From an uncultured Flavobacteriaceae bacterium (lineage in GTDB: Bacteria; Bacteroidota; Bacteroidia; Flavobacteriales; Flavobacteriaceae), in contig CALIIP010000155.1 in the NCBI GenBank assembly GCA_938018045.1, positions 1 through 34,787 on the forward strand: a stretch of 34,787 nucleotides of DNA. Reading direction: 5' to 3'. The notes beneath the pieces were generated by a model. The model made no database searches and was not told where the DNA came from. It saw nothing but the letters and a program-made list of their open reading frames with translations. Position numbers and translations under genes: made by a program. Positions within the stretch are counted from its first letter, which is position 1. The number at the start of each line of letters is the position of its first letter. Shown in pieces: positions 10,624 through 31,459 of the stretch.

Positions 10624-11652
10624 TTCTGTTTTTATTTCTGATGTGTTTTCCTTAAATCCAGCGTAGTTTTTTACCTCATCCAACATTTCTATTTTAAATT
10701 TATTTACAGATGAATAAGGAGCAATTCTTAACTTCTGCATTCTTTTTGCTAAATATACTTGTTCGTATTGTCCTTTTGTTGGAATAAAGAATGCTTTTTT
10801 ACTCAATACAGCCAAATCCATAATTGTTGAATATCCTGACCTTGCAATAATTAAAATACTCTCATTGATCGCAATTTCCAATTCATGAGATAATAAATAA
10901 TTGTAAAATTTGATGTTGTTTTTCTCTGATGATTTCTGTTCTTTTTCTATAACTCCTCGAACAAAAAGAACCTTTCCTTTGTAGTTTTTTAATTCTGATA
11001 ATAACTTATTTTCCAATTGACTACGCAGCGGCTCAATACCTGACAATAAAACCAACAAATCGTACTTTACATCTAAATTGTTTTTCTTAAATCTACTTAA
11101 AAAGCCAATAAATTTCTGATTTTTAACCGTATCAGAAAGTGATAGTTTTTTGGCAAGACTTTCTTCTGAATTTACATCAGGAATCCAACATTCGTCAAAT
11201 TTATTGATGAGTTTTTGATGGATCTTACTGCTTAAAAAAGTTGTACTTCCAGATAGAACATTTAATTGATGTGTTATAAAAACAGAAGGAACTTTATCAC
11301 TTCGAACACCAAATCTATTATCAGAAATAATTCCGCTTAGGTTTTCTGATTGAATTAGTTCCTGAACAATTTCAGTTTCTTTTTTAATAGTTTTTAGTAT
11401 TCTAGGAGCGTCAAAAATTAATTTCCATTTAATAAGATTTCCATTCTTTGGATACTTAATATTATAAGAAGGTAATGCTAGTGATTTTAATTTCGGGAAC
11501 TCTTTTTGAAGTAATTGTAGCGCTTCACCATCACTTGCAATTATAGGATTAAAATCTAATTCTATCAACTTATTAATAATTGGTATACAACGTGTAGCAT
11601 GACCAATTCCCCAATTTAAAGGAGTAACTAATATGTTTTTTTTAGAGGTCAA
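10597..11652 (-). CDS. MurG/GT28-like glycosyltransferase
   Basis: NILVTPLNWGIGHATRCIPIINKLIE ... ARSGYSTIMDLAVLSKKAFFIPTKGQYEQVYLAKRM. Start codon is TTG at 11652. Confidence 0.8.
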   Translation of the reverse strand: MTSKKNILVTPLNWGIGHATRCIPIINKLIELDFNPIIASDGEALQLLQKEFPKLKSLALPSYNIKYPKNGNLIKWKLIFDAPRILKTIKKETEIVQELIQSENLSGIISDNRFGVRSDKVPSVFITHQLNVLSGSTTFLSSKIHQKLINKFDECWIPDVNSEESLAKKLSLSDTVKNQKFIGFLSRFKKNNLDVKYDLLVLLSGIEPLRSQLENKLLSELKNYKGKVLFVRGVIEKEQKSSEKNNIKFYNYLLSHELEIAINESILIIARSGYSTIMDLAVLSKKAFFIPTKGQYEQVYLAKRMQKLRIAPYSSVNKFKIEMLDEVKNYAGFKENTSEIKTELFDLFKCK

Positions 11653-12916
11653 AACCGATATCTTTTCGGTAATTCATCTTATCAAAAGAGATGTTTTTAA
11701 TGCTATTGTAAGATTTGTTAAGTGCATCTTTATAGTCATTTCCGTAAGAAGTTACAGCAATTACACGTCCACCATTTGTGAGCGTTTCACCATTGTTATT
11801 TTTAGTAGTTCCAGCGTGAAAAACAAGAGATTCATTGATGTTTTCAATACCATTAATTTTCTTTCCTTTTTCGTACGCTTCAGGATACCCTCCAGAAACT
11901 AACATTACTGTAGTTGCAGATCTCTTATCAATTTCAATCGAACTATTTTCTAAATCGTTGTTTCCTGTTGCAATCAATAATTCTAATAAATCTGATTTAA
12001 TACGCGGAATAACAACTTCAGTTTCGGGATCTCCCATTCTACAATTATATTCAATAACCATTGGCTCATTATTCACTTTTATCAATCCAAAGAAAATAAA
12101 TCCTTTATATGAAATGTTATCTTTTTGCAAGCCCAAAACAGTCGGTTTAATAACTCTTTCTTCAATTTTATTCAGATAGTCTTCATCTGCAAATGGAACC
12201 GGAGAAATGGCACCCATTCCACCTGTATTGAGCCCTTTATCTCCTTCTCCTATACGTTTGTAATCTTTTGCATTAGGAAGGTTGATATAGTTTTTACCAT
12301 CAGTTAGTATAAAACAACTCATTTCTATACCATCTAAAAACTCTTCTATAACTACTGTTTTACTTGCTTCTCCAAATTTTTCATTGGTTAGCATATCTGT
12401 AAGTTCGTTTTTAGCTTCTTGGATGTTTGGTAAAATCACAACTCCCTTTCCAGCAGCTAAACCGTCAGCTTTTAAAACATATGGAGGTTTTAAACTTTCT
12501 AAAAAATCAAAACCTTCATTCAAGTTGTCTTTGGTAAAACTTTTATATGCTGCCGTAGGAATATTGTGCCTTTGCATGAATTCTTTTGCAAATTCTTTAC
12601 TTCCTTCAAGTTGTGCTGCTAATTTTTGTGGGCCAATGACATGAATATGTTTCAATTTATCGTCAGATAAGAAAAAATCGTGAATACCTTCAACAAGTGG
12701 AATTTCTGGGCCTACTAAAACTAATTTGATATTATGTTTTAATACTGCTTCTTTTATTTTTTGAAAATCAGAAACGAGAATCTGTAAATTTGTTCCAAAT
12801 TCTGCTGTACCAGCATTTCCTGGAGCTATAAAAAGTTCATTTAAGCGGCTGCTTTGTTTCAGTTTCCACGCAATTGCATGTTCTCGTCCTCCTGAACCTA
12901 TGATTAATACATTCAT
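11642..12916 (-). CDS. purD: Phosphoribosylamine--glycine ligase
   Basis: MNVLIIGSGGREHAIAWKL ... LKADGLAAGKGVVI ... NTGGMGAISPVPF ... EYNCRMGDPETEVV: GARS signatures. Confidence 0.97.
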   Translation of the reverse strand: MNVLIIGSGGREHAIAWKLKQSSRLNELFIAPGNAGTAEFGTNLQILVSDFQKIKEAVLKHNIKLVLVGPEIPLVEGIHDFFLSDDKLKHIHVIGPQKLAAQLEGSKEFAKEFMQRHNIPTAAYKSFTKDNLNEGFDFLESLKPPYVLKADGLAAGKGVVILPNIQEAKNELTDMLTNEKFGEASKTVVIEEFLDGIEMSCFILTDGKNYINLPNAKDYKRIGEGDKGLNTGGMGAISPVPFADEDYLNKIEERVIKPTVLGLQKDNISYKGFIFFGLIKVNNEPMVIEYNCRMGDPETEVVIPRIKSDLLELLIATGNNDLENSSIEIDKRSATTVMLVSGGYPEAYEKGKKINGIENINESLVFHAGTTKNNNGETLTNGGRVIAVTSYGNDYKDALNKSYNSIKNISFDKMNYRKDIGFDL

Positions 12917-12919
12917 AAT

Positions 12920-13205
12920 TTATTTTCCTTTTCCTTTTAAAACTACACTAATTGTTGCAAAGATAATTTTTAAATCTGTCCTTAAATTAAAATTTTCTAA
13001 ATACTTTAAATCGTATCGTGCTCTTTGCGGCATATCTTGAATATTATCTGCATAACCAAACCTAATTTGCCCTAAAGATGTTATACCTTGCTTTATTTCT
13101 TGAAGTTTTTTATATTGTGGAATATGAGAAATCGTCTGGTCTGAAAAAAATTGTGATTGTAATTAAAAAAAGTATATCGAAAAGTCTTTTGATAAAGATG
13201 TACAA
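12920..13205 (-). pseudogene. Internally deleted remnant of a priming glycosyl-phosphotransferase (bacterial sugar transferase family)
   Basis: 12920-13162 minus encodes (no start) LQSQFFSDQTISHIPQYKKLQEIKQGITSLGQIRFGYADNIQDMPQRARYDLKYLENFNLRTDLKIIFATISVVLKGKGK*, a sugar-transferase C-terminus. A different frame just upstream (13205 down to about 13143) encodes LYIFIKRLFDILFLITITIFF, the N-terminal 'KRxFDI' membrane segment of the same family. The catalytic middle is missing. Confidence 0.75.
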
Positions 13206-13206
13206 A

Positions 13207-15096
13207 CTATTCTACTTTTAGGTCTAAAGCTTCATATAATGAATTTTGAGACTTATATTCTGGAACGATTTCTTTTATTTTTTTAACGATTTCTTTATTG
13301 TCGCAAGTTTTGCTCAAAACACAAAGTTCAAGAATTTGATTTTTTATGTCTTCAACATCAAATGCCCTTACTTTTGCAATCATAATCTTATCATTATAAG
13401 TAGGAACTGTATTTTCTCCGTTTGCTAAAAGTTCTTCATAAATTTTTTCTCCAGGGCGTAATCCTGTAATTTTTATATCGATGTCTTGAGGATATCTTAA
13501 TCCTGACAATTGAATCATATTAATTGCCAAGTCAAATATTTTTATTGATTCTCCCATATCAAACACATAAATTTCTCCACCTTTACCCATTGCTCCAGCT
13601 TCTAATACTAACTGACAAGCTTCGGGAATTGTCATAAAATATCTTGTGATTTCTTCGTGTGTGACAGTTAAAGGACCTCCATTTTCAATTTGCCTTTTAA
13701 ATAAAGGGATTACAGATCCATTAGAGCCAAGAACATTTCCAAAGCGAGTAGTAATAAATTTTGTTGTGCCTTTATCCTTTAGACAAGCAGCGTAGATTTC
13801 GGCAATGCGTTTTGTTGCTCCCATTACATTGGTTGGATTTACAGCTTTGTCTGTAGAAACCATTACAAATTTTTCCACTTTATGTTTTATAGCCAAATCC
13901 ATAATCAAATGAGTTCCTACAACATTTACGTTTACAGCCTCATAAGGGTTATCTTCCATCAACGGGACATGTTTGTAGGCTGCAGCATGGAAAATTATAT
14001 CTGGTTTGTATACTTCAAGTATTTTATTCATTCTCCTTTCTCCTCGTATATCTGCAATAATAAATTCTATACTAACTTTTCCTAGACTATTAAATTCTTG
14101 TTGTAAATCATATAAAGGGGATTCTGCTTGGTCTATTAAAATTAGTTTTTCATAATTGTAAAAAGAGATTTGTCTTGAAATTTCACTTCCAATTGATCCT
14201 GCTGCTCCAGTAATTAATATTGTCTTTTTATTAAATTCTTTTTTTAGAAGAGAGTTTTCAATGTTTATTACTTCTCTACCAAGAAGGTCTTCAATTTTAA
14301 TATCTTTAATTTGACCAGCTTCTAAATTACCGTCAATCCAGTTTTTTACTGGTGGCACTATTTTAACCTTTAAAGATTTAGATAGTAAATTATCAACAAT
14401 TTCAAGCAAACGATTAGGTTTAACATTTTGGATAGAAACAATTACTTGACTTATTCGATTCTTTTCAATAAAATCTCTAGTTATTTGTTTTGGACTATAA
14501 ATTTTAACTTGATTTATTTTTTTACCAACTTTACTCTTACTATCATCTATAAAACCAACAACATTCAATTTGTTAATTTTCTCTTCATATAAAGCCGAAT
14601 ATGTAATTATCCCTGAATCTCCAGCTCCATATATTAATACTCTTGAACTTGGTTTTAAGTCTAAAACTAAACGTTTATATAAAAGTTTAAAAATAAATCT
14701 ACTTAAGATTAAAACAATAACATTCAATAAAAAATGAATGATAATAATTGTGTATGAAATGTTAAAAAAGGGTCTTTGAAAATAGTGCTTGTCAATTAAA
14801 AAAAGACCTGTTAAAAAGAGCATCAATAAAGAAACGGCTATTAATACATTTAATGCGTCTTTAGATCCTGTGTGCCTTATAACCCCTTTGTATGACCCAA
14901 CTATCACATAACTTAAAAAAGTTGCAATTACTACAATAGGAATTGTATATATTAATTGATTATAATCAAAATCAAAATTATATTGAATTATAAATGCTAA
15001 AATAAATGATTGAACTGTTAGGTAAATGTCTATTACTAGAACAATCCACCTTGGTGTATATTTTTGATTAATATTTTGAAAAAATGTCTTTAGCAA
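13207..15096 (-). CDS. CapD/PglF/FlaA1-like nucleoside-diphosphate-sugar 4,6-dehydratase
   Basis: N-terminal TM segments; KKTILITGAAGSIGSEISRQI; HAAAYKHVPLMEDNPYEAVNVNVVGT; VMVSTDKAVNPTNVMGATKRIAE. Start codon TTG at 15096. Confidence 0.92.
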   Translation of the reverse strand: MLKTFFQNINQKYTPRWIVLVIDIYLTVQSFILAFIIQYNFDFDYNQLIYTIPIVVIATFLSYVIVGSYKGVIRHTGSKDALNVLIAVSLLMLFLTGLFLIDKHYFQRPFFNISYTIIIIHFLLNVIVLILSRFIFKLLYKRLVLDLKPSSRVLIYGAGDSGIITYSALYEEKINKLNVVGFIDDSKSKVGKKINQVKIYSPKQITRDFIEKNRISQVIVSIQNVKPNRLLEIVDNLLSKSLKVKIVPPVKNWIDGNLEAGQIKDIKIEDLLGREVINIENSLLKKEFNKKTILITGAAGSIGSEISRQISFYNYEKLILIDQAESPLYDLQQEFNSLGKVSIEFIIADIRGERRMNKILEVYKPDIIFHAAAYKHVPLMEDNPYEAVNVNVVGTHLIMDLAIKHKVEKFVMVSTDKAVNPTNVMGATKRIAEIYAACLKDKGTTKFITTRFGNVLGSNGSVIPLFKRQIENGGPLTVTHEEITRYFMTIPEACQLVLEAGAMGKGGEIYVFDMGESIKIFDLAINMIQLSGLRYPQDIDIKITGLRPGEKIYEELLANGENTVPTYNDKIMIAKVRAFDVEDIKNQILELCVLSKTCDNKEIVKKIKEIVPEYKSQNSLYEALDLKVE

Positions 15097-15316: not shown

Positions 15317-16453
15317 TTATTTAATGCCTTTTAAAATTGCTTTTTTTATTCTATTTTTTTCTTCTATCAATAAATTAGAGCCTGACGGTAAACACAAACC
15401 TGTTAAAAATAGTGTTTTACTTATTTTACTTCCTGCATATTCGTACTTTTTAAAAATAGGTTGTAAATGCATCGGTTTCCATAAAGGTCTAGCCTCAATG
15501 TCTTCATCTGATAAAGTGATTCTAAGTTTCTCTGGATTTATATTCGTTAAGTTTGAATCAATTTTAATACAACTCAACCAATGATTAGAATAAAAATCAC
15601 TAGAAGGTTCAACAAAAACCTCTACACCATCAATATTTTTAAATATTTCTTGATAAAACTTGTTATTATCCCTTCTTAGTTTTACATGATCGTCTAATAC
15701 TTCCATTTGCCCTCTTCCAATTCCTGCAACAACATTACTCATCCTATAATTATATCCTATTTCTGAATGCTGATAGTGTGGCGCATCATCTCTAGATTGA
15801 GTTGCGTAAAAAATAGCTTTTTCTTTATCCTTTTGATTTCTACAAACCAATGCTCCTCCTCCTGAAGTTGTAATGATTTTATTCCCATTGAATGATAAAA
15901 TTCCAAAATCCCCAAAAGTTCCACATTTTTGACCTTTATAACTAGATCCTAATGCTTCTGCTGCATCCTCTATTAATATTATATTATACCTTTTAGAAAC
16001 AGCAACAATTTCATCGATTTTTGCAGGCATTCCATATAAGTGAACAACAATAATTGCCTTTGGCTTTTTGCCTTTTGCAATTTTTTCTTCAATCATTTTT
16101 TCTAAATGAATTGGACACATATTCCAAGTGTCTTTTTCACTATCAATAAAAATTGGTTTTGCTCCTTGATAAAGAATCGGATTTGCAGACGCAGAAAATG
16201 TCATGCTTTGGCAGATAACCTCATCATCTCTTTGAACATTTGATAATATTAAAGCCAAATGTATCGCGGCTGTTCCTGAAGATAGTGCTGCCACTTTTGA
16301 ATTTTCTCCTAAATACTTTTCTAAATCTTTTTCAAATCCATTAACATTTGAGCCTAATGGCGCAATCCAATTCGCATCAAATGCTTCTTTGATATATTTT
16401 TGTTCGTTTCCTCCCATGTGTGGTGAGGATAACCATATTTTTTTATTTTGCAT
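15317..16453 (-). CDS. DegT/DnrJ/EryC1/StrS PLP-dependent sugar aminotransferase (PglE-like)
   Basis: NWIAPLGSNVNGFEKDLEKYLG; ALSSGTAAIHLAL; LIEDAAEALGSSYKGQKCGTFGDFGILSFNGNKIITTSGGGALV. ATG 16453 preferred over TTG 16459. Confidence 0.93.
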   Translation of the reverse strand: MQNKKIWLSSPHMGGNEQKYIKEAFDANWIAPLGSNVNGFEKDLEKYLGENSKVAALSSGTAAIHLALILSNVQRDDEVICQSMTFSASANPILYQGAKPIFIDSEKDTWNMCPIHLEKMIEEKIAKGKKPKAIIVVHLYGMPAKIDEIVAVSKRYNIILIEDAAEALGSSYKGQKCGTFGDFGILSFNGNKIITTSGGGALVCRNQKDKEKAIFYATQSRDDAPHYQHSEIGYNYRMSNVVAGIGRGQMEVLDDHVKLRRDNNKFYQEIFKNIDGVEVFVEPSSDFYSNHWLSCIKIDSNLTNINPEKLRITLSDEDIEARPLWKPMHLQPIFKKYEYAGSKISKTLFLTGLCLPSGSNLLIEEKNRIKKAILKGIK

Positions 16454-16502
16454 TATCAATTTGATTTATGTCTGTAAAGTTTGTTTCTCCCTGATTATTG
16501 GA

Positions 16503-17855
16503 TTAATATGCTTTTTGTTCTCCTTTTAAAACATTAAAAAATGTTTGTGCTATTATTTTTAGATCTAACAAGAATGACCATTTGTTAATGTAAAAAATAT
16601 CTAAACGTACTCTATTTTCCATATCAGAAATTTCTTCAATCTCGCCACGATACCCTCTAACTTGTGAAAGCCCTGTTATTCCAGGTTTTACCAAATTTCT
16701 AATAAAATATCTATTTATTATTTTTGAATATTTTTTTGTTTGGCTTATCATATGTGGTCTTGGCCCCACAACACTCATTTCTCCTTTAAAAACATTTATA
16801 AACTGAGGCAATTCATCAATACTTGTTTTTCTAATAAATTTCCCTATTCGAGTAATTCTAACGTCTCCCTTTATTGTTTGTGTTTTATCTGATGATTTAT
16901 TTATTCCCATAGAGCGAAACTTATAACAATAAAATTGTTTTCCGTTCAAACCATCTCTAAGTTGTTTAAATATTAGCGGCCCTTTTGACTCTAGTTTTAT
17001 TAAAATAAAAAAAATAATACTAATCCATGATAAAATAAATACGATAATAAAAAGTGAAAAAATAATGTCAAAAAAACGTTTAGAATATTTAATTATTGGA
17101 TTGTCAAAAGGGAGTTTTTTTAATGATAAAATAGGGATATAATCAAAATAATCTACAACGACTTCTTTGCTAAGAAGCCCTTTAGAGTCTGGTATTAGTT
17201 TTACGGTTATATTATTTTCTTCTCCAAAGTTAATAATATCTTCTATTTCTTCTTTTGTAAGGTCTGAAATAGAGCAGAATATTTCATCTATTTGATTTAA
17301 TATTACAAAATTAAAACTCTCTTTTATTTTCCCTAAATAATTATCTTTTGATTTATCTACATCTGAAAAATACCCTTTAAATCTATACCCTAAATCGTTT
17401 CGTAAATTAAAGAAGGTTCTAAGTGATTCTATTGATTGGTTTTCTCCTAAAATAATAACATCTCTAAAATTTCCTCCACCTAATCTATATCTTCTTAAGG
17501 CATAAAGATAAAGTGTTTTTAATATTAAAATAGCACTGAAAATAATTGTTAATATTGAACCCTTATTCACTGTTTGTATACTCTCTCCAAAGATACTGAA
17601 ATAAGCAAAATAGGATAAAAAGTAAACAGAAAATTGAAATAATAATCGAGAAACTACAGTGGTGAGTTTGGTGTATCTATAAACTTTGTATAGTTTAGTG
17701 TTTAAGGAAATAAGTAGCCATAAAAGATTGAAATAAAGTATATATAAAAAATTGGAATATAAATCTTTTGATAACAAGAACATTGTAAGATTTATAACGG
17801 ATAAATCTACAAGTATAGAAATTGGGGTTAAAAATATTGAGTATCCTTTTTTCAA
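16503..17855 (-). CDS. Undecaprenyl-phosphate glycosyl-phosphotransferase (WcaJ-like priming transferase)
   Basis: N-terminal TM segments and CoA-binding-like domain; KRFFDIIFSLFIIVFILSW...KGPLIFKQLRDGLNGKQFYCYKFRSM...IRKTSIDELPQFINVFKGEMSVVGPRPH...VKPGITGLSQVRGYRG. Start TTG at 17855; in-frame TAA at 17877-17879 with no ATG between. Confidence 0.93.
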   Translation of the reverse strand: MKKGYSIFLTPISILVDLSVINLTMFLLSKDLYSNFLYILYFNLLWLLISLNTKLYKVYRYTKLTTVVSRLLFQFSVYFLSYFAYFSIFGESIQTVNKGSILTIIFSAILILKTLYLYALRRYRLGGGNFRDVIILGENQSIESLRTFFNLRNDLGYRFKGYFSDVDKSKDNYLGKIKESFNFVILNQIDEIFCSISDLTKEEIEDIINFGEENNITVKLIPDSKGLLSKEVVVDYFDYIPILSLKKLPFDNPIIKYSKRFFDIIFSLFIIVFILSWISIIFFILIKLESKGPLIFKQLRDGLNGKQFYCYKFRSMGINKSSDKTQTIKGDVRITRIGKFIRKTSIDELPQFINVFKGEMSVVGPRPHMISQTKKYSKIINRYFIRNLVKPGITGLSQVRGYRGEIEEISDMENRVRLDIFYINKWSFLLDLKIIAQTFFNVLKGEQKAY

Positions 17856-26447: not shown

Positions 26448-28010
26448 CTATAATTCTGTTTGCATAAATACTTTTAGGCTTGACGGTAAAATATAAATAT
26501 CATTTAAGGATTCTATTTTCCCTTCCCAACCTAGAATAATTTTTTCATTTGATGTTGGTCCAAATATTATTCTTATATCTTTTGAGTTGATTTTTCCAAC
26601 TAATTTACACTTGTACCAACCTTCACCTAAGTTCTCAATATAAGCTTCACCATTTTTGAAATCTCCTCCTTTTTCTACACCTTCTACTTCTCCATTTTTT
26701 AAATCAAAAACTGCATCAACTCTATTTGGATAAGCGCCTTGAATTCTTAGACCAAAAAAGTCGCTGTTTTCCCCTTTTTTAACAATCACTTCTGTAAAAT
26801 AATTATCGCCGGAATTCACATTTATAGTTTTAGTAACCATATAAGATGGCTCAGTAATACTATTTCTTTTTATGTGATATACTTCTTTATTATTTAACTC
26901 TTGTAAATTATTTTCTAAATTTAATCGAACTTCAACCCATGTTCTATAATCAGGAATGGTTATTTCTTCATTAATAATTTTCTTTAATTTTATTTTATTT
27001 TTGACTTTTTTTGATGTTTTATTTATAGTTATCTCGAATTTCTGAAGAATTTTTTCTAAAATAAAGGGAGTTATTTTTTTACTTCCAAATTTATTTAAGT
27101 GAGAAAAATCACTGTAATCATCATATCCTAAATTCAATTCATTAAAATTATAATTTAAATTTAAATAGTCAACTTCATTTGTTTTAAATAATGTTTCAAA
27201 ATACTTGAGGTTCCCATAAATGTTTTTATCATAAAGCATATCAATCGCTGGTGGTGTTATAAATAATAAATTAATGTTGTTTTGTTTGCATTTATCTATA
27301 ATATTTAAAAGCACTTCTTCGGACTTTTCACTTATTTTAAGCTCATGAGTTTTATTCATTTCGCTAAAAAAATTATTAGCAAAAAAATTTAATTCATTTC
27401 TCTGTTTTCTTTGACTCTCATTTAATTTATTTGTAACATTAAGTTCGAAACCATCTGCATTGTCTTTTTTAAAATGTTTTAACTTATTATTAGATTCAAC
27501 TAGGTTTTCTGAAAAATCACTGTGAAATCTAATTGTTGAACTGAAAACCTTAGGGTATTCATCAACCGTATACAGCTCTTTTACTAGAGAAAAATAGTTT
27601 TTAGAATATTTTAGTTCATCTAGCCCTGCCATTTGAAGATGTTTCCAAGTTTTTGACTCTGATTTTCTAAAAGCATAAGGAGATATTGATATTACTAAAA
27701 GTTTTGATGGGTGAAAGTCTTTGTTTTTTACTAAATTATTGAAAATTTCATTTGTAATAAAAAAATACTGAGCTGAGCCACCTATATTTAGACTTTTTGT
27801 GTTCATAACACTATCTAAATAATTAACATCGTATGACCTTTGGGATAATGAGTTTCCCATAAAAATGAAATCAAACTTTTCTTTATCTTTAAAAAGACGT
27901 TTATGTGTTGTGTGAATTAATTCATCTTGAATAACTAAACGGTCAATCACGCTAATTATTAGTGTTGTGACTATTAAAAATATAACTGTTTTTTTAAGTA
28001 GTGTATACAT
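26448..28010 (-). CDS. Membrane-anchored SGNH-like protein (AlgJ/DltD-like role) with C-terminal jelly-roll-like domain
   Basis: N-terminal TM MYTLLKKTVIFLIVTTLIISVI; FDFIFMGNSLSQRSYD (Ser block), NIGGSAQ, DYSDFSHLNKFG (Asp/His block). The C-terminal about 170 aa match the lipoprotein at 30839-31459. ATG 28010 preferred over 28064, which overlaps the MBOAT gene. Confidence 0.75.
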   Translation of the reverse strand: MYTLLKKTVIFLIVTTLIISVIDRLVIQDELIHTTHKRLFKDKEKFDFIFMGNSLSQRSYDVNYLDSVMNTKSLNIGGSAQYFFITNEIFNNLVKNKDFHPSKLLVISISPYAFRKSESKTWKHLQMAGLDELKYSKNYFSLVKELYTVDEYPKVFSSTIRFHSDFSENLVESNNKLKHFKKDNADGFELNVTNKLNESQRKQRNELNFFANNFFSEMNKTHELKISEKSEEVLLNIIDKCKQNNINLLFITPPAIDMLYDKNIYGNLKYFETLFKTNEVDYLNLNYNFNELNLGYDDYSDFSHLNKFGSKKITPFILEKILQKFEITINKTSKKVKNKIKLKKIINEEITIPDYRTWVEVRLNLENNLQELNNKEVYHIKRNSITEPSYMVTKTINVNSGDNYFTEVIVKKGENSDFFGLRIQGAYPNRVDAVFDLKNGEVEGVEKGGDFKNGEAYIENLGEGWYKCKLVGKINSKDIRIIFGPTSNEKIILGWEGKIESLNDIYILPSSLKVFMQTEL

Positions 28011-28011
28011 A

Positions 28012-29481
28012 TTAAAATTGAAAATAAATAAATTGTGACGTGTCGTTGTCACCATAAACACCAAAAATTATTATCGTAAATATTATTATACTGTAAAAAA
28101 CCCATCTAAAAAAAAGTGGTTGTTCTCTTAATAAATTTACAACATTTTTTCTTTTATGAATAACCTCAAAACCTAATAGTGATATTATGGCTATCAATAG
28201 TATAATTAATTCGTTTTTTCCAAGCCCTAAATTATATAACTGATCTGTAAACAATATTGTAAAATTCTCTAAAGATATTTTACTGATTAGTATTAAAGCA
28301 TCTTCAAAATTATTGGCTCTAAAAAATATCCACGCAAAACATACAATACTAAATGTAATTATTGAAAACAATAAATTACTTGAGATGGATTTTTTTCCTA
28401 ACCCAATTTTTGAGTAAATATTAAATCTTACCTTTTTTGTTGCTTTTTCTAAAACAATGATTGCTCCATGTATTGCTCCCCAGATTATGAATGTCATTGC
28501 TGCACTATGCCATAATCCACTTACAACAAAAACAATAAATAAATTTTTATAGGTTTTGTACTTTCCATTTTTACTTCCTCCTAGTGGAATATATACATAG
28601 TCTCGAAACCAAGTAGACAGTGATATGTGCCATCGATGCCAAAATTCAGTAATTGACTTAGAAAAATACGGACTATCAAAGTTTTTCATTAAATCAAATC
28701 CTAAAGTTCTAGCAGTTCCAATTGCAATGTCAGAATATCCAGAAAAATCACAATAAATTTGAAAAGCAAATAAAACTGTAGCAATTATAATTTCTACACC
28801 TGAATAATCTGCAGGATTGTTATAGACTTGATTTACAATTATTGCTGCCCTATCTGCAATAACCATTTTTTTAAAGAGTCCAAATGCAATTAATAAAAAC
28901 CCAGATTTTACTTGGTTATAATTAAATTTATTGAGTTTATAAAATTGAGGCAGTAAATGAGAAGCCCGTTCTATAGGTCCAGCTACTAGTTGTGGGAAAA
29001 ACGCAACAAATGAAAAAAATGCAAGAGCATTTTTTGTTGGTTTTAATTTATTTCTATAAATATCTATTGTATAACTCAACGTTTGAAATGTATAAAAACT
29101 AATTCCAACCGGAAGAATAATATTTAATGTAGAGATTTCAAGTTGTTTTCCAAATAAAGTAAATGCATTTACAAAAGTATCTACAAAAAAATTAGTGTAT
29201 TTAAAATAAAATAAAAAACCTAGATTAACAATCAAACTGACAAGTAAAAAGCCTTTTTTCTTTTTTTTACTATTGGCTTTATAAATTTTTTGACCAATAA
29301 TAAAATCTACTAATGAACTAATAGCAATTAAAAAAAGAAATCTCCAGTCCCACCAACCATAAAAGATATAACTAGAAATGAGAATTAGTATGTTTCTTAA
29401 AGTTAGTTTTTTTGCAAACAACCAAAAAAGAAGAAATACTATTGGAAAAAATATCGCAAAGTCAATCGAATTGAATAGCAT
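28012..29481 (-). CDS. MBOAT family O-acyltransferase (AlgI/PatA-like)
   Basis: SSYIFYGWWDWRFLFLI; FFPQLVAGPIERASHLLPQF; YCDFSGYSDIAIGTARTLGFDLMKNFDSPYFSKSITEFWHRWHISLSTWFRDYVYIPLGGSK; VSGLWHSAAMTFIIWGAIHG. Confidence 0.96.
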   Translation of the reverse strand: MLFNSIDFAIFFPIVFLLFWLFAKKLTLRNILILISSYIFYGWWDWRFLFLIAISSLVDFIIGQKIYKANSKKKKKGFLLVSLIVNLGFLFYFKYTNFFVDTFVNAFTLFGKQLEISTLNIILPVGISFYTFQTLSYTIDIYRNKLKPTKNALAFFSFVAFFPQLVAGPIERASHLLPQFYKLNKFNYNQVKSGFLLIAFGLFKKMVIADRAAIIVNQVYNNPADYSGVEIIIATVLFAFQIYCDFSGYSDIAIGTARTLGFDLMKNFDSPYFSKSITEFWHRWHISLSTWFRDYVYIPLGGSKNGKYKTYKNLFIVFVVSGLWHSAAMTFIIWGAIHGAIIVLEKATKKVRFNIYSKIGLGKKSISSNLLFSIITFSIVCFAWIFFRANNFEDALILISKISLENFTILFTDQLYNLGLGKNELIILLIAIISLLGFEVIHKRKNVVNLLREQPLFFRWVFYSIIIFTIIIFGVYGDNDTSQFIYFQF

Positions 29482-30838: not shown

Positions 30839-31459
30839 TTACTGAACTAATACTTTTTCTAAACTTAAACTTTGAGGAATAACATATATATCGCAAAATT
30901 CATTAGTGCTCGATTCCCACCCTTCAATTTTCGTTTTTTCATTCGTTGGACCAAAAATTAAATTTATCTTATCTGCTAGTACTGTTGTTTTTATAGTACA
31001 CTTATACCAATCATCACCAAGCGATTCAATTTTAGCACTTTCATTTTCAAAATCTCTGAATTTTTTTACTCCTACAACTATTCCTTTTTCTAAATCAAAA
31101 ACTGCATCTGCTCTGTCAGGATAAGGTCCCGAAATTCTAAAACCAAAAAAACTGGATTTCTCTCCTTTTTTAACAATAATACTAGCTATGTAATCACTAT
31201 CGTATTCAGAAATAATACTTCTTGAAACAAAATAAGATGGTTTAGTATTCGTCAATCGAGCCATTTTAAATGCTTTATTTGTTTTATACATTAAAGAGGT
31301 AGAATCTAAGTCTATTAAAATTTTTCCCCAAGTAATGTAATCAGGAATGTCAATTTTTGTCAACACTTCTTTTTTCTCTGTTGGTTTTACAACTTCTTTT
31401 TTCTCATTTTTACATGAAAATGCAATAACCAATACTATTGCTAAAATTATTTTCCTCAT
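30839..31459 (-). CDS. Lipoprotein consisting mainly of the same jelly-roll-like domain as the SGNH protein C-terminus
   Basis: MRKIILAIVLVIAFSCKNEKK lipobox; IPDYITW...IIVKKGEKSSFFGFRISGPYPDRADAVFDLEKGIVVGVKKFRDFENESAKIESLGDDWYKCTI...INLIFGPTNEKTKIEGWE...DIYVIPQSL aligns along its length with 26451-26960. Confidence 0.8.
   Translation of the reverse strand: MRKIILAIVLVIAFSCKNEKKEVVKPTEKKEVLTKIDIPDYITWGKILIDLDSTSLMYKTNKAFKMARLTNTKPSYFVSRSIISEYDSDYIASIIVKKGEKSSFFGFRISGPYPDRADAVFDLEKGIVVGVKKFRDFENESAKIESLGDDWYKCTIKTTVLADKINLIFGPTNEKTKIEGWESSTNEFCDIYVIPQSLSLEKVLVQ

Follow-up and report, generated by a model that had tools for sequence, protein, structure and literature searches.

Remnant of a small phosphoglycosyl transferase gene between capD and purD in an uncultured Flavobacteriaceae bacterium

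We have analysed a stretch of 34,787 nucleotides from an uncultured, marine, Lutibacter-like Flavobacteriaceae bacterium (contig CALIIP010000155.1 of assembly GCA_938018045.1), here called the window. The features of interest, which are collected in Table 1, lie on the minus strand, where an aminotransferase gene and a capD-like gene are read towards purD. The segment between capD and purD is what remains of a gene for a small monotopic phosphoglycosyl transferase (PGT) of family PF02397 (Bac_transf). Its first 63 nt encode the beginning of the protein and the remainder encodes the C-terminus in another minus-strand frame; both peptides quoted in a preliminary description were found in the 2 frames, as described there. 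Several Flavobacteriaceae genomes have purD at the edge of a variable polysaccharide locus that ends in a PGT (window 12900-34736; L076, L078-L081). Two minus-strand genes of this locus in the window, at 26448-28064 and 30839-31459, have in common a domain of ~175 aa (43% identity, E 7e-46) that matches nothing in Pfam, and the product of the 30839-31459 gene is lipoprotein-like.

Table 1. Features of the window around the PGT remnant
Feature	Position	Strand	Remarks
purD, intact	11642-12916	-	3 nt after the remnant stop
PGT remnant as a whole	12920-13205	-	286 nt; TTG start at 13205, stop at 12920-12922
C-terminal remnant of small PGT	12920-13144	-	74 codons and stop; PF02397 positions 117-179
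-7-like box (TAnnTTTG), TATCTTTG	12958-12965	-	within the remnant, 49 nt before the purD start; promoter role speculative
N-terminal remnant of small PGT	13143-13205	-	TTG start and start of membrane helix (LYIFIKRLFDILFLITITIFF); collinear with NORP37 L033:5638-5700
Deletion junction zone	13146-13157	-	A/T-rich microhomology: window, ACAATTTT; NORP37 ends, ATAGTTTT and ACAATTTT
capD/PglF-like UDP-sugar 4,6-dehydratase, intact	13207-15096	-	89% aa identity to NORP37
DegT/DnrJ/EryC1 (LegC/WcfR-like) aminotransferase, intact	15317-16459	-	85% aa identity to NORP37
Large PGT (CoA_binding_3 + Bac_transf), intact	16503-17855	-	groups with large PGTs adjacent to purD in other Lutibacter

The C-terminal peptide matched positions 117-179 of the 179 in PF02397 with 48.5 bits (E 9.8e-13; the curated cut-off is 27 bits), and also aligned with the C-terminal ends of several NCBIfam PGT models; the match to the family profile covers its C-terminal third only. 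The N-terminal 21 codons by themselves gave no match in HMM profile searches, the piece being too short, and their assignment therefore rests on a collinear DNA alignment with the intact orthologue described below, in which this piece directly follows the capD stop (68% nt and 38% aa identity); of the N-terminus, where the reentrant membrane helix would lie, the first ~17-20 residues are left, collinear with the orthologue and 38% identical. The remnant as a whole scored 137 bits against that orthologue, while 60 shuffles of the remnant DNA scored at most 18.5 bits. The C-terminal piece also hit a C-type lectin (PDB 3jqh), which was rejected as chance similarity driven by repeats, each repeat matching with only 3-7 bits.

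A search with the C-terminal peptide returned one close relative, Lutibacter sp. NORP37 (L033), with 88% identity over 73 aa. In NORP37 the gene order is aminotransferase, capD, PGT, purD, and the PGT is intact (194 aa, 585 nt), matching PF02397 over positions 1-179 with 200.7 bits and no other domain. The preliminary description had pointed to sister strains as the place to look for an intact gene at this site, and NORP37, on which as one close relative the intact-orthologue comparison rests, carries it in the same place. Close homologues (65-70% identity) were found in 6 of 301 Flavobacteriaceae genomes; with NORP37 this gives 7 intact genes, every one of them directly upstream of purD, the neighbour on the opposite side being variable (capD in NORP37 and in G095, a genome of another genus with the order capD-PGT-purD; other genes elsewhere). 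These relatives are 191-199 aa long and consist of the PGT core only, without CoA_binding_3 or a four-helix domain, as is the case for small PGTs; the remnant begins just after the capD stop, which leaves no room for a further N-terminal domain. Its close homology to these genes and its position directly 5' of purD place it in the same orthologue group, and in a maximum-likelihood tree it paired with NORP37 (97/95) inside a clade of purD-linked small PGTs (100/98) that holds the 7 intact members.

The remnant (286 nt) and the intact NORP37 gene differ by a missing stretch of 299 bp, which appears as a single gap in the DNA alignment and amounts to 99 codons and 2 bases, in keeping with the 100 codons or more estimated earlier. 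Beyond the gap the DNA is 88% identical to NORP37, and before it the 2 sequences are collinear with a more diverged start. Since 299 is not a multiple of three, the reading frame breaks: the N-terminal frame continues for 10 codons past the deletion before it meets a stop, and the C-terminal frame has no ATG, GTG or TTG until codon 38, the Met of DMPQRAR, and so is unlikely to be translated in this form. The break point can be placed to within about a dozen bases, around 13146-13157, and the deletion probably arose by slipped or illegitimate recombination between short A/T-rich repeats. With its frame broken relative to an intact syntenic orthologue, the gene is an ordinary pseudogene, a common kind of gene decay.

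As the preliminary description had maintained, it is the catalytic middle that is gone. Alignment to NORP37 shows that residues ~18-117 are lost, including RIDEFPQF, a motif present in all 7 intact relatives, which in the intact protein lines up with the region of PglC and WbaP that holds the catalytic Asp-Glu. The Asp-Glu dyad, by which together with the substrate-binding core a working enzyme is recognized, and the definitions of small and large PGTs are those of PMC10942596. The NORP37 orthologue resembles the small PGT of Campylobacter, PglC, in consisting of the PGT core only (194 aa), and aligns to it with E ~1e-26; in contrast, the copy in the window has lost residues ~18-117 together with the Asp-Glu pair, so that it cannot work and is a remnant, not an enzyme. 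Outside the deletion, 2 of the 41 positions that are invariant among the intact relatives are altered, the Pro of PGIT to Gln and a Leu adjoining the junction to Ser. The dN/dS of the remnant against NORP37 is still low, at 0.16, which indicates that the divergence is mostly older than the break and that little decay has followed it.

Strain mixture or an assembly error could conceivably lie behind the broken gene, the assembly being fragmented (269 contigs) and 82% complete. That the organism carries the gene whole, and that the assembly lost 299 bp of it, we nevertheless consider very unlikely: the window contains no N anywhere, the junction shares at most ~8 bases, which should be far below the usual assembly overlap, and invariant positions outside the deletion, such as the Pro now read as Gln, are altered as well.

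The only PF02397 matches in the whole assembly were the remnant and the intact PGT at 16503-17855, although the portion of the genome absent from the assembly could harbour another small PGT. The latter enzyme is a large PGT of the WbaP/WcaJ type, which has the same catalytic domain family as the remnant; the orthologues of the remnant differ from this type in lacking the N-terminal membrane bundle and CoA_binding_3, and small and large PGTs formed separate, strongly supported clades in our tree. The difference in subtype between remnant and intact enzyme noted earlier is thus borne out. In 3 other Lutibacter genomes (G005, G009 and G011) purD is directly preceded by a large PGT of 449-450 aa, 67-70% identical to that of the window, with which it groups in the tree (100/99; 100/100 for the wider clade), and several further genera have members of this clade at purD or close to it.

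DNA homology between the window and NORP37 runs from 6.9 kb to 16447 of the window and ends there, in the first codons of the aminotransferase gene; downstream of this point the 2 genomes are collinear (82-87% DNA identity) and upstream they are not. Homology to the large PGTs of G005, G009 and G011 ends, for its part, at the stop codon at 16503, where in those genomes purD follows directly. By these 2 homology limits and the clade membership of the enzymes, the window is a mosaic that joins 2 alternative modules, a large-PGT cluster and an aminotransferase-capD-small-PGT module. It was also observed that NORP37 carries a 713-aa open frame (L033:1361-3502) in which a WecA-like polytopic PGT (PF00953) is apparently fused to the LegC/WcfR-like aminotransferase, be it a true fusion or the effect of a lost stop. 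The aminotransferase of the window is free-standing, and the putative NORP37 fusion sits at the mosaic border; its WecA-like sequence found no match in the window's own, 82% complete, genome assembly.

The preliminary description had correctly recognized an internally deleted, frame-broken gene of a different subtype, and had further taken it as a sign that an older polysaccharide or glycosylation pathway had been replaced. This latter part did not hold up as well. A replacement of an older pathway by the large-PGT cluster is compatible with the pseudogene itself, and we regard it as possible but somewhat doubtful. It would account for a collinearity with NORP37 that is confined to the region downstream of 16447, since the large-PGT cluster could have arrived by exchange beside an existing aminotransferase-capD-PGT-purD module, and the occurrence of capD-PGT-purD in another genus (G095) speaks in its favour. 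However, large PGTs of the same clade are themselves adjacent to purD in 3 Lutibacter genomes and at or near it in other genera, while the small PGT is patchy and rare (6 of 301 genomes). Also, when genomes are ranked by purD identity to the window, those of the capD type (G012, G006, G010) are interleaved with those of the large-PGT type (G011, G009, G005), so that neither arrangement is plainly older. The large PGT seems to have been resident for no less time than the small one, and the data fit a single exchange site that can take either of 2 modules and where the redundant small PGT is in decay.

PGT loss at the purD site has occurred more than once, as judged from 2 further genomes. G010 retains the last ~25 codons of a PGT directly before purD, after a capD fragment (L104:4639-4713; 29.3 bits, with 0 of 60 shuffles above 20), and G006 has aminotransferase-capD-purD without the small PGT, no trace of which was found in the 250 bp between its capD and purD. 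Upstream of the aminotransferase, G006 has a piece of a PGT that is frame-broken and contains internal stops (L100:7171-7386). A PGT 3' trace in G004 (20.8 bits, where shuffles reached up to 18.9) was too weak to count. Among 28 purD loci of the family that we surveyed for context, 9 have a PGT within 1.5 kb upstream of purD. Our literature search, in which candidates were judged by title and abstract, turned up no paper on purD-linked polysaccharide loci.

The survival of the 3' piece could have a reason of its own: if the purD promoter or leader lies within it, only the remainder of the gene could be lost freely. We think this unlikely, as we do the broader proposal that small-PGT genes next to purD have a 3' end that also serves as a purD promoter/leader and that, while the enzyme decays, has been retained for purine synthesis across independent lineages (the window, G010 and perhaps G004). 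The element in question resembles the -7-type consensus TAnnTTTG from F. psychrophilum (PMC9723704). G010 and, weakly, G004 likewise keep only the 3' end of the PGT gene, in which TATCTTTG stands at -70 and -45 respectively; most purD genes without a PGT carry a TAnnTTTG box between about -23 and -32; and the remnant has diverged less from NORP37 at synonymous sites (0.425) than has any 72-codon stretch of capD, purD or the next gene, although this comparison concerns one 72-codon window and the start of purD is also low (0.47). Boxes similar to TATCTTTG occur in 4 intact relatives of other genera, and the site shows a bias to the TTG codon (4 of 7 small-PGT genes, against 15-30% of leucine codons) that is suggestive only, the genes being related. 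Yet the distance from box to purD is not constant, the box lies at a different codon in Lutibacter (KIIFA) than in other genera (LSL), G095 and G218 have no box near purD, large-PGT-purD operons have none, and no -33 element is evident. With such varying spacing and codon position, and 2 relatives lacking the box near purD, a promoter role is only an idea; the simplest answer for the persistence of the 3' end is chance together with the need to spare purD.

We are highly confident that the locus holds a small-PGT pseudogene, formed when a mosaic with 2 priming enzymes was followed by one 299-bp deletion of the small-PGT core. In the history that we propose, a large-PGT polysaccharide cluster would have been joined upstream of an aminotransferase-capD-small-PGT-purD module, placing 2 priming enzymes in one locus, and a single deletion, probably between the short A/T-rich repeats, would then have removed the core and shifted the frame while sparing purD; this order of events is one that we infer. 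The small PGT was probably redundant beside the large one, and redundancy the cause of its decay; the large PGT would be the likely initiator now. When intact, the small enzyme would have transferred a sugar-1-phosphate to undecaprenyl phosphate, priming a surface polysaccharide, and the gene families of the neighbouring dehydratase and aminotransferase suggest that the sugar was probably of the amino-deoxy type. These 2 neighbours match in kind those of the PglF/UngD2-WcfR-WcfS route (PMC13063421), and the gene families and their order fit a priming pathway of the AATGal type (PglF/WcfR/WcfS kind), a shared sugar being predicted; WcfS of Bacteroides fragilis is a comparable small PGT by function. 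As capD and the aminotransferase gene are intact in the window, the amino-deoxy sugar may still be made, and may be used inside the repeat unit.

Comparable cases are gene fragments in capsule or O-antigen loci that are open to exchange, such as the wcyO pseudogene reported for a pneumococcal serotype 33F locus (PMC6218050). There, one biosynthesis gene has likewise decayed in a variable polysaccharide locus; the window differs in that the decayed gene is the priming enzyme and purD is a fixed flank. The PGT remnant of the window changes no general picture. For annotators, it shows that an apparent gene-free gap can be the remnant of a PGT. For the Flavobacteriaceae, it shows a purD-anchored polysaccharide locus in which 2 subtypes of priming enzyme alternate and the presumably redundant one decays, and it offers a handle on the swapping of surface polysaccharides in marine Bacteroidota.
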